From Chromera velia (lineage: Eukaryota; Sar; Chromeraceae), in assembly GCA_018398765.1 (NCBI GenBank), contig JAHBMJ010001372.1, forward strand, positions 23,566-87,565: a DNA stretch of 64,000 nucleotides, written 5' to 3'. A program made the position numbers and the translations under genes. How positions within the stretch are numbered: the first letter of the stretch is position 1; the number at the start of each line of letters is the position of its first letter. Shown here in pieces: positions 43,988 to 50,968 of this stretch. Under the pieces are notes generated by a model, which searched no databases, had not been told where the DNA came from, and saw nothing but the letters and a program-made list of their open reading frames with translations.

Positions 43988-44512
43988 AGAGTAACAGAGA
44001 GCAAGACACAGTTAGGCCTGTGCGGTCACATACATGCATGCATCCCCATGCCGATGTATGCGCTTATAGTCGTTCACTTTCCTTTTTTTTTTGTTTTCAT
44101 CCTCCTCCGTTTTATTCTGTTACTTCTTACTCCCGCTTTACTTTCCCCTCTCTGTCCTAGGGTCTGACACTCTGTAAGAGTACCCTAGGTTTGAAGTTAG
44201 ATTTTTCAATAAAAACTTAAATTTTTGATGTTTTAAAAGAGATTTTTGGAGCTTAATTTGCTAGAAAAGCTTAAAAAATGCTAAAATAGGGTAGGTTTAG
44301 ATGAGTTTAAAACCTATTTGCTACATTAGGTTTAGAATTGGTTTGGAAACCATGGTCGCGCCAGACTCAAACCTTCCAAACCTCTTCAAACCTCTCTAAA
44401 CCTGGTCAAACTTCTAAAATCTGTATGTGAATGATCTGTTAAAAGCACATTTTGTACGTTTTTGCCGGCAGGACCACATTTGTGACAGTGTGACACTCTA
44501 TGCATGAGCGTT

Positions 44513-45601
44513 TCAGGAAGGGGATACAGCCTCGCTTGCATCAGCATTCACAGCAGCCGCTGCATTCTCCTTATCCTGCTCCCCCACCTTTTCCCCTCTC
44601 TTCTTTCCCGGCACGATCTTTGTTTGCTTGATCGCCTCTCCATGGAAACCATACATATGATTAAAGAATTTGGTCAGGACAAATTTCACCTTTCCAGACA
44701 GCCACTATGCCATGAAGAGCTTTGTCTATCCGTCTGTAACGGACCAGAGCTTGCACTCAATTTTCACCTTGTAATTGTTCTTGTATGAGGCCCCATCCTA
44801 CTCTGGATCGAACAGTCTGACCTTATGAATCGCGAAGTCAGGCTCTGCCCCCCCTTCCTCAAGGGTGGAAAAGGACACAATTGTCGTATCTTTGGCGTCA
44901 CTCTTTACCTTTTTAATAGCTGCGATGATGTGATCTTTAATCACCCTTTCTCCAGGCTTCGGCGGAACAGCCTGCTTAGGTTTTTTCAGGGGCTTCTCCT
45001 CCATGCTGTTGCCTACAGTTTCTTTGGTAGTTCCTTTAAGACGCTCCCTCTTGTAGTGAGTGTCTTGAGCAATTTCCACGAAGGGTCTCTTTGCTTTCTC
45101 TCTGATCTCATCCAGGTATCCTGCATAGAGTGCGTCATACTTCTGAGTAAAGGCCCTCCATCTCTCTAGCTGCTGCCGAGAAGTCGCTCCATAAATGATA
45201 AAAGGAAGAACATGCTGGGGGAGAAGATTTTCGAACAATGGCTTTTTTCTGTTTGCAAGTGGTTCCATCCCATTTTCTTGCTCATACCAGGCATTCGCCA
45301 TATCAGCCAACTTCAGAAAGAGAACCTTCTTGCTCTTTCTCTCTCTCTCTCTCTCTCTCTCTCTCTCTCTCTCTTTCTCTTTCTCTCTCTCTCTCTCTCT
45401 CTCTCTCTCTCTTTCTCTCTCTCTCTCTCTCTCTCTCTCTCTCTCTCTCTTTCTCTCTCTCTCTCTCTCAAGCAGACATCAAAGCAAGAGATGCAAAGAA
45501 CCTTGTGGTGTGCCCATATGTCACTTCTGTGCGATGCAAGACCGTTTCCTTTCCACACTTGCTGTCTTCTCTTTAACCTTTTCAAACAATGTACGGTGCA
45601 T
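44513..45601 (-). pseudogene. Unidentified gene with three in-frame TAGs, copy 1
   Basis: Exon 1 is 45601-45525 (MHRTLFEKVKEKTASVERKR). The intron contains the CT/GA microsatellite. Exon 2 starts near 45332 and reads KKVLFLKLADMANAWYEQEN, FIIYGATSRQQLERWRAF and FVEIAQDTHYKRERLKG. The frame meets TAG at 44800-44798 yet keeps coding character to a TGA at 44515-44513, crossing two more TAGs at 44728 and 44707. Peptides beyond the first stop include DGASYKNNYKVKIECKLWSV and GKVKFVLTKFFNHMYGFHGE. If the first TAG is a true stop, the protein has about 205 residues. CAG-to-TAG decay is the simplest reading. No domain is recognised. It is divergent from the gene at 45723. Confidence 0.55.
45335..45471. 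repeat. (CT)n microsatellite, long allele
   Basis: About 135 bp of CT with occasional TTT interruptions, inside the intron of the minus-strand gene. The same tract in copy 2 (48867-48919) is 82 bp shorter. Confidence 0.95.
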
Positions 45602-45722
45602 GCTAGTATACGCCGGAACCCCTAAGGCGTAGCCCTCTCCCCCCCCCTCCCTCTCTCCCTCTCCCCCTCACCCTCTCCTTCTCTCCCCTCTCTACCTCTC
45701 CTCCCCTACATTCAAAATATCA
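45602..45722. promoter_or_regulatory. Shared 5' region of a divergent gene pair
   Basis: The two start codons (ATG at 45601 on the minus strand, ATG at 45723 on the plus strand) are only 121 bp apart. The spacer is almost pure pyrimidine on the plus strand (CCCTCTCTCCCTCTCCCCCT-type). A bidirectional promoter is inferred from the layout; no TATA box is visible. Confidence 0.4.
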
Positions 45723-46749
45723 ATGATCATATGTTTGCAGGTGACTGTTCCTGGTGTTAGTCCTAGGGGGGGTGTACGAAGAAACAAGTTCATGAAGGAC
45801 AACATGTATGCCTTCAACTGGAAGAACCTCGTCAACTTGTCGAACTATGGAGAGATCCAGAGTGAGGACAACATCGGCTCTGCTGAAGAGGAATCTGTAG
45901 GTGCACGCGCTGGTCAGCAAGTTTCAGAGACAGGCCTTTCAAGAAGCAGTGGGCCGACAAACAGCCGTGACCCTTTGCAGGCAACAGAAAGGAGAAGAAG
46001 AGAAGGAGCAGCGGTGGAGGTTAAAGAGGGAGAAAGCACTCAAGAGGTGATTGAGAGTGGCCTGCTCAACAGTGAAGCAGACCTTCTGCGCGCAGAAGAT
46101 TTATTGATTCAAGCAGCTCAAGCTGAGGAGACAGTTTCTCCAAGCGAGCGAAGAGTTAGACGGGTGCATGCATGTGCAGCATCCTGTTCGCAGTGATATG
46201 TTGCTCTCATCTGTATGCATTTTGCTTCGCAACGAGAAGCTTACTGCTGACAGAGGAGAGAGCATCGCACGTAAGCCTCTTCTTTGCCATACAAGGCCTG
46301 AGAGGGGAGAGTATTCTGTTGGGTTGGGGGATATCGTTGCGGTATGGTATGAAGAGAAACCTGGAGAACATGAGTGGTATGTTTCTAAGGTGGTCGATCT
46401 GGTGAATCCGGAAGACATTCACCCTGTTACCAAGAAAGGCAAAAGCATCGGTCTTAAAGTTTCTCGGATCGGCCACATTGATGGAAATGCGAAGTTTCAT
46501 GCTCATCTTGTTTTGTATAAAGATGTTGATAAACAGAGCGAGGCAAGCTACACTATGTTCATATCAATGCTGATGCGACGCTCTCATACTCCACTCTTAG
46601 ACGATGTGCCGATCGGCGTAGTGTTTTTTTGAATTCACACTGCACTAAATATTGATGACGGCTTACGAATTGAAGACAGAGAATTGGAGCAAGTTGACCG
46701 GGCGTTTGAAAAGGAAATTGCACCTCTGGAGGAGTCTGTTAAAGTGTGA
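45723..46749 (+). pseudogene. Unidentified gene with a tiny intron and an in-frame TGA, copy 1
   Basis: From ATG 45723 the frame reads VTVPGVSPRGGVRRNKFMKD and MYAFNWKNLVNLSNYGEIQS, then acidic helical sequence to SPSERRVRR. The protein-like continuation (RNEKLTADRGESIARKPL, GDIVAVWYEEKPGEHEWYVS) is in another frame. The two fit only if GTGCATGCATGTGCAG (16 nt, 46166-46181) or a 25-nt version is removed. GDIVAVWYEE...EWYVSKV weakly resembles Tudor/BAH-type small barrels. The frame then stops at TGA 46630-46632, but continues in frame with coding character (NIDDGLRIEDRELEQVDRAF) to TGA 46747-46749. It is either a decaying gene or one with unusual splicing. Confidence 0.5.
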
Positions 46750-49051: not shown

Positions 49052-49172
49052 GCTAGTATACGCCGGAACCCCTAAGGCGTAGCCCTCTCCCCCCCCCTCC
49101 CTCTCTCCCTCTCCCCCTCACCCTCTCCTTCTCTCCCCTCTCTACCTCTCCTCCCCTACATTCAAAATATCA

Positions 49173-50199
49173 ATGATCATATGTTTGCAGGTGACTGTTC
49201 CTGGTGTTAGTCCTAGGGGGGGTGTACGAAGAAACAAGTTCATGAAGGACAACATGTATGCCTTCAACTGGAAGAACCTCGTCAACTTGTCGAACTATGG
49301 AGAGATCCAGAGTGAGGACAACATCGGCTCTGCTGAAGAGGAATCTGTAGGTGCACGCGCTGGTCAGCAAGTTTCAGAGACAGGCCTTTCAAGAAGCAGT
49401 GGGCCGACAAACAGCCGTGACCCTTTGCAGGCAACAGAAAGGAGAAGAAGAGAAGGAGCAGCGGTGGAGGTTAAAGAGGGAGAAAGCACTCAAGAGGTGA
49501 TTGAGAGTGGCCTGCTCAACAGTGAAGCAGACCTTCTGCGCGCAGAAGATTTATTGATTCAAGCAGCTCAAGCTGAGGAGACAGTTTCTCCAAGCGAGCG
49601 AAGAGTTAGACGGGTGCATGCATGTGCAGCATCCTGTTCGCAGTGATATGTTGCTCTCATCTGTATGCATTTTGCTTCGCAACGAGAAGCTTACTGCTGA
49701 CAGAGGAGAGAGCATCGCACGTAAGCCTCTTCTTTGCCATACAAGGCCTGAGAGGGGAGAGTATTCTGTTGGGTTGGGGGATATCGTTGCGGTATGGTAT
49801 GAAGAGAAACCTGGAGAACATGAGTGGTATGTTTCTAAGGTGGTCGATCTGGTGAATCCGGAAGACATTCACCCTGTTACCAAGAAAGGCAAAAGCATCG
49901 GTCTTAAAGTTTCTCGGATCGGCCACATTGATGGAAATGCGAAGTTTCATGCTCATCTTGTTTTGTATAAAGATGTTGATAAACAGAGCGAGGCAAGCTA
50001 CACTATGTTCATATCAATGCTGATGCGACGCTCTCATACTCCACTCTTAGACGATGTGCCGATCGGCGTAGTGTTTTTTTGAATTCACACTGCACTAAAT
50101 ATTGATGACGGCTTACGAATTGAAGACAGAGAATTGGAGCAAGTTGACCGGGCGTTTGAAAAGGAAATTGCACCTCTGGAGGAGTCTGTTAAAGTGTGA
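49173..50199 (+). pseudogene. Unidentified gene with a tiny intron and an in-frame TGA, copy 2
   Basis: Identical to 45723-46749, including the 16-nt GTGCATGCATGTGCAG segment and the internal TGA (50080-50082). The perfect sharing means the anomalies are not random errors of one contig, though both copies could derive from the same reads. Confidence 0.5.
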
Positions 50200-50968
50200 A
50201 AGAATGAAAGCAGCTTTTCTGTTCTTGAGTTTATCCTATATTCGTTAAATAATCGGTTTATCTGATGTTTCCTGGTAAAATGCCAGGTTGTGCATGTATG
50301 TTTGCCCAGGTGTTTGCTTTGCATCTTCTCTGTATTCATACAAAAGCCATTTAGAACCAGGTTTAGACAGGTTTGGTCAGGTTGGGGGATTAGGTTTGCA
50401 AACCGATGTCATGAGCGTTTGCAAACCTCAGAGGGTGAATTGACTTTCCTATATGTAAAAGGTCATAAGATTTAATTTAAAAAGTTGTGTTATCGTAGGA
50501 ATAAGGTCAGTTTATCCTAAAAACCTTAAAAAACCACTTTTTAGAGTTATAGCTAATCAGAGTGACACATATCTCTAGGGTTTATAATTAAATTATATTT
50601 ATTTATTTTTTTTTGTCATGCCCTAGTCTCTGTCTTCTTTCCTCTTCCGAGGCGCCGGCCTCGTACCAATGCGGGAAAGTCAGACGAGTGAACGCGGCTA
50701 CATAGAGGCAAAAGTAAAAGGATATACATTCTCAACAACACACCCCGCATGTTATTAACAAGAGTTCGTTTCGATGCAGCCAGTAGAAAAGGCAGTCACA
50801 GTGAGAAGCCAGAGAAGCAAACGGCCAAAACTGGGAAATGAAAAGGGCAGACCGATCGACCTTTCACAGAGGAACAAAACAGACAGACCCAGAGGGACAC
50901 ATGCGACCAACCAAAGAAGTCGCGGATCAAAAGCTCAGGTATGTACGTACGCACATACACACTCCTGC

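Follow-up and report, generated by a model that had tools for sequence, protein, structure and literature searches.

In the 64,000-nucleotide stretch of Chromera velia DNA analyzed here (contig JAHBMJ010001372.1, positions 23,566 to 87,565; hereafter 'the window'), a block of about 3.4 kb stands twice in direct orientation. It comprises a transposon-like element, designated E, lodged in a dispersed repeat, designated R2. Judged from the sequence, this arrangement is very probably an assembly artifact, a false duplication of the published kind known as 'duplicated overlapping contigs' (DOC), the same piece of chromosome having been written twice. The evidence lies in the layout and identity of the two copies, the structure of E and its R2 surroundings, and the company that single Ns keep elsewhere in the assembly.

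Layout and identity of the two copies

Self-comparison of the window placed copy 1 at 43988-47518 (3531 bp) and copy 2 at 47520-50968 (3449 bp), with the only N of the window, a single base at position 47519, lying exactly between them. A preliminary description of this DNA had stated that two copies of about 3.4 kb meet precisely at that N, and this was borne out to the base. In other words, the facing ends of adjacent contigs in one scaffold align with each other, 3531 against 3449 bp, and abut the single N. The copies are identical without exception over their first 1381 and last 2099 bases; since these two lengths together exceed the length of copy 2 by 31, the identical ends overlap by 31 bases, and one 82-bp length change in a CT tract is the only difference between the copies. 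The preliminary description had likewise named an 82-bp shorter CT tract in copy 2 as the sole difference, rightly so: beyond the tract, all 3394 aligned bases agree, with no single-nucleotide polymorphism (SNP) and no other indel, which sets an upper bound of about 0.09% on the divergence. Outside the tract, therefore, copy 2 equals copy 1, and a chance origin of the match is excluded. Because an N occupies the junction of the copies, the sequence joining them is unobserved rather than shown to be absent.

The tract itself measures 137 bp in copy 1 (45333-45469), where it consists of four pure CT runs of 16-36 bp with interruptions between them, and 55 bp in copy 2 (48865-48919), where two pure CT runs are found. 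The change is internal: 82 bp are missing between CT blocks that carry interruptions, and the position of the loss is free to shift by 31 bp. No k-mer of 51 or longer is repeated in the surrounding region of copy 1 (45201-45600).

The 177.8-Mb assembly (4040 contigs) was then searched with four probes that together tile the block, the best 40 candidates being scored for each probe. Among these scored candidates, there was no third near-identical copy of the block, and no long match elsewhere exceeded 90%; the highest was 90% over about 0.8 kb (C640), and two short matches of 173 bp and 41 bp reached 95%.

Element E within the R2 repeat

Each copy of the block is made up of 169 bp of R2 (43988-44156 in copy 1), the element E of about 3.0 kb, and a further 342 bp of R2 (47177-47518 in copy 1). 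With its boundaries placed where the homology to other genomic copies stops, E spans 44157-47176 in copy 1 (3020 bp, with the termini CTAGGG...CCCTAG) and 47689-50626 in copy 2 (2938 bp). It is flanked by an 8-bp target-site duplication, TCTCTGTC, found to the left of E at 44149-44156 and 47681-47688, and to its right at 47177-47184 and 50627-50634, in copies 1 and 2 respectively. The ends of E form short terminal inverted repeats, agreeing at 11 of the first 15 bp. E is a multicopy element: in two probe searches, 39 of 41 and 28 of 46 of the rows, among the matches listed, were matches elsewhere. Many of the relatives so listed seem to be shorter, about 1.07 kb, and to lack the middle, such as C1179:7623-8695, which was pieced together from several probe searches. 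A 3-kb form alongside forms of about 1.07 kb resembles an element with non-autonomous derivatives. A relative of E in another sampled stretch, L027, is bracketed by the target-site duplication CCCCAGCC.

Members of the hAT family of DNA transposons are marked by short terminal inverted repeats and by target-site duplications of 8 bp. E resembles this family in both features, short terminal inverted repeats and a target-site duplication being seen also in the L027 relative, and again in its relatives of about 1.07 kb without the middle; it differs in that no hAT transposase was found in the frames scanned. E is for this reason described as hAT-like only, is not assigned to the hAT superfamily, and may be non-autonomous. 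A literature search found no paper joining Chromera, hAT, transposon and target site duplication.

All doubled open reading frames (ORFs) lie inside E, namely, one of 170 amino acids on the minus strand (44798-45310, and again 48330-48842), which had no Pfam match over the cut-off, and two of 157 and 154 amino acids on the plus strand. No Pfam match over the cut-off was obtained in E for three ORFs or for 10 of its 29 listed frames of at least 50 codons, which were scanned as well. A host gene in the block was rejected on the ground that no scanned frame reached the Pfam cut-off. The preliminary description had advised that gene counts in this segment be halved, which hardly applies to ORFs that sit in a transposon-like element. 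E also contains a 174-codon open frame on the plus strand (46108-46632), without a Pfam match, that is widely repeated in the genome, with 110 match rows, two of which are the window's own. It represents a repeated protein family, and some of its matches belong to open frames reported as reaching 1079 codons in length.

The sequence outside the block had been called unique, which proved incorrect: both flanks belong to R2, which runs through each outer edge of the block. The left part of R2, as found in the relative L036 at 1-679, occupies 43476-44156 and is continuous through the left edge at 43988, and it may extend further to the left of 43476, where the sequence of the relative used ends; the right part, as in L036 672-1401, occupies 50627-51347 and is continuous through the right edge at 50968. 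A second relative, L037, behaves likewise, with its 2-751 corresponding to the window from 43424 and its 744-1401 corresponding to the window as far as 51264. R2 is dispersed, with 38 other places at 80-86% among the matches listed. Direct repeats of about 480 bp, 89% identical, flank the R2 copy at 42865-43333 and 54006-54485, and are possibly the terminal repeats of a larger element.

L036 and L037 carry R2 without E, and both cross the insertion point as well as both outer edges of the block. L036 has a single occurrence of the target TCTCTGTC, and L037 a single occurrence in which one base is changed. When the window flanks, with one block omitted, were aligned with L036, the one relative so aligned, 1187 of 1363 aligned bases matched. 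This alignment is unbroken at 43987/43988 and at 50968/50969; its closest gaps lie near 44021 (9 bp), 50877 (5 bp) and 51011 (29 bp). Since the R2 relatives are continuous across these positions, the outer edges of the 'duplication' are ordinary points within a continuous repeat; and since relatives without E span the insertion point and both edges, a single insertion of E into a single R2 copy suffices to explain all of the sequence. Between the outer edges (300 bp to either side), no homology longer than 12 bp was found. Unequal crossing-over between repeats at the edges was rejected for lack of such homology, although other routes of duplication need none.

Direct repeats and short gaps in the sampled assembly

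A control sample was assembled from 31 non-redundant stretches of the genome (the window and L008-L037, with L001-L007 left out as being contained in others), amounting to 275,576 known bases. A screen for direct repeats with a length of 100 bp or more, an identity of 98% or more and a period of 200 or more gave 12 rows. Five of these were a minisatellite of the window at 4324-4805, built of 32-bp units, whose shifted copies match at 100%; the other seven came from three loci, namely, the window, L014 and L026, and each of the seven encloses at least one single N. Apart from the minisatellite, the sampled bases contained no direct repeat of 98% identity or more that was free of N.

Viewed from the side of the gaps, the sample holds eight short gaps, seven of which are single Ns, and four of the seven lie within near-identical repeats. 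With the window excluded, the probability that three of seven short gaps fall by chance in such spans is about 2e-4, or about 7e-3 for two of seven if the L014 pair is counted once, but these figures are rough, as the spans were defined post hoc and L014 had been chosen for its E relative. At L026 1799-2653, a 427-bp repeat of 98.4% identity abuts a single N on both sides, in the same layout as in the window. At L014 1-2295, two single Ns stand amid repeats of 147-365 bp with 99-100% identity, an arrangement like that of a contained contig plus an overlapping contig.

Probable origin of the duplication

Since contigs built from de Bruijn graphs do not overlap by kilobases, an overlap of 3.4 kb must stem from later extension. 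By convention, the scaffolder SSPACE denotes a gap of predicted negative size by a single n; printed support for this convention was not found in the literature searched. The published Chromera velia assembly (193.66 Mb, compared with 72.7 Mb in Vitrella; 5953 scaffolds from 13,987 contigs, 582,995 Ns) was produced by Velvet at k = 71, followed by SSPACE, GapFiller, IMAGE and ICORN (PMC4501334). Of these, IMAGE performs iterative local assembly that walks into gaps (PMC2884544), and the authors of GapFiller remark that it ignores the gap size and that its genomes come out relatively large, most likely because both edges of a scaffold are extended (PMC3446322). GapFiller itself by default rejects closures that are more than 50 nt off the estimate, and the 82-bp difference in the CT tract exceeds this default (PMC3446322). 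Gaps between overlapping contigs are documented with other tools and genomes: SOAPdenovo2 often places them there (PMC5368935), and in Corymbia, 3,149 gaps were patched with a loss of 55,511 bases owing to negative gaps (PMC8110574).

The overlap thus probably arose by gap walking from both sides, and we infer the following course of events. The real locus would consist of one R2 copy holding one 3.0-kb E insertion, and the short-read assembly would have broken at E, because E belongs to a multicopy family, a usual cause of such breaks. Gap filling or extension would then have proceeded inward from both sides; the left walk would have crossed E and halted 342 bp past it, and the right walk would have crossed E and halted 169 bp past it. 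The distances of 169 and 342 bp fit within one short-insert fragment of the published libraries (300-500 bp; PMC4501334). The CT tract would have come out at a different length in each walk, since 82 bp between stretches identical over 31 bp could be skipped at a k near 30, and the ends would have remained unmerged, leaving the scaffold with a minimal gap of one base. Of the explanation given in the preliminary description, the unmerged overlap stands as the best account of the block; the microsatellite, to which it had attributed the failure, may be the reason why the ends were not merged, but a de Bruijn assembler does not of its own accord produce contigs with an overlap of 3.4 kb.

Several points weigh against a false duplication or speak for a real, very recent 3.4-kb tandem duplication, possibly arisen in culture, with a junction that short reads failed to bridge. 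Two copies do stand in the deposited sequence, and their CT tracts differ in length, as those of two real copies might. An assembler unable to cross identical copies would also halt at or near their junction, and a real tandem repeat of this kind would give the same end-to-start layout; the earlier argument that a true tandem duplication could do without an N is therefore weak, since short reads cannot resolve an identical tandem repeat of 3.4 kb. The derivation from a single copy is an argument of parsimony and not a proof, for a tandem duplication would begin from the same state. Real direct duplications do occur in this genome: when the thresholds were relaxed to 200 bp and 95% identity, four N-free repeats of 95-97.5% were found besides the minisatellite, in L018 (479 bp, 97.5%), L024 (5376-6137, a tandem pair of about 375 bp, 96.5%, 13 bp apart, apparently a real tandem duplication), L026 (2227-2760 versus 3175-3707, 97.4%) and L027 (339 bp, 95.3%), so that the association with N is limited to near-identical copies. 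Three of the seven single Ns (L016 8472, L032 1466 and L032 2986) lack duplicated flanks within the limited sequence beside them (1,528 bp to the right in L016; 1,465 and 2,985 bp to the left in L032), as does a gap of three Ns at L026 8476; a single N alone, then, does not signify an overlap. Of the parallels, L026 is not a clean one, as it has a further copy at 3175-3600, and in L014 the match starts 172 bp inside the right-hand piece. Finally, the use of the published pipeline for the present assembly is presumed; relative to the published assembly, the 177.8-Mb set searched would be short of some scaffolds.

Nonetheless, we consider a tandem duplication improbable. Among the matches listed, the remaining copies of E and R2 diverge by about 5-33%, against the bound of about 0.09% for the two copies here; the edges share no appreciable homology; near-identical direct repeats other than the minisatellite always came with an N in the sample; and with short reads one would expect two such copies to be merged into one instead of both being written out. 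More plausible, though still rather unlikely, is that two alleles or culture variants differing in CT length were placed in series. This would also be a false duplication, of the published heterotype class (PMC9516828, PMC2864568), and it overlaps with the preferred explanation, the distinction lying in what made the CT tracts differ. The sole difference between the copies being a microsatellite length, a type of site that changes fast, agrees with it, whereas the complete lack of SNPs and other indels in 3394 bp speaks against it, as does the ability of a local walk with k of about 30 to produce the 82-bp loss from one template; an allelic difference in CT length may nevertheless have contributed. 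A literature search on the ploidy of Chromera turned up nothing that bears on this. As E is multicopy, two separate E insertions at different places might also have been wrongly joined, but the probability of this is close to nil. The R2 sequence on either side of E (169 and 342 bp, 511 bp in all) and the target-site duplication are common to the two copies, and independent insertions were rejected on this ground; among the matches listed, full-length flanks reach no more than 86-89% elsewhere, and shorter pieces 94-95%.

Other features of the window and the assembly

Away from the block, an ORF on the plus strand at 17100-18080 has a Pfam match to Telomere_reg-2 over the cut-off (E-value 1.1e-8), and is likely a TEL2-like host gene. 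Across the assembly, there were 58 matches to light-harvesting proteins and 11 to alveolin-type proteins, a gene content that suggests a photosynthetic alveolate and agrees with Chromera velia; of 14 control genomes, Synechococcus also gave a signal in the first search and Caulobacter in the second.

Significance and comparison with known false duplications

The biological effect at this locus is small, and host gene counts hardly change, because the doubled ORFs belong to E; if the duplication were true, it would be a minor and very young tandem duplication. The case also cautions that near-identical direct repeats meeting at a single N in this assembly, of which the sampled 0.28 Mb had three loci, need support from reads before they are taken for duplications. 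No published notice of misassembly in Chromera velia was found among the papers listed by a literature search (six of 387), none of which names the species; this is not proof that no such notice exists.

The block resembles the DOCs of Kelley and Salzberg (2010; PMC2864568) in that aligning ends of neighboring contigs are set in series and mimic a segmental duplication. In chicken, the first genome by the column order of their Table 2, 5,947 DOCs were counted in 11.2 Mb, or about 1.9 kb each if this figure is duplicated length, so that 3.4 kb is not unusual (PMC2864568). Two differences are apparent: proof there came from mate-pair distances, whereas the present block is known from sequence alone, and haplotype divergence was the main cause there, whereas the present copies diverge only in the CT tract (PMC2864568). 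The block is also comparable with the homotype and heterotype false duplications of a later study by Ko et al. (2022), in which the duplicated pair lies on one scaffold with a gap between, as is the case here with the N at 47519; of the two classes, homotype fits the block better, because its copies are without SNPs (PMC9516828).

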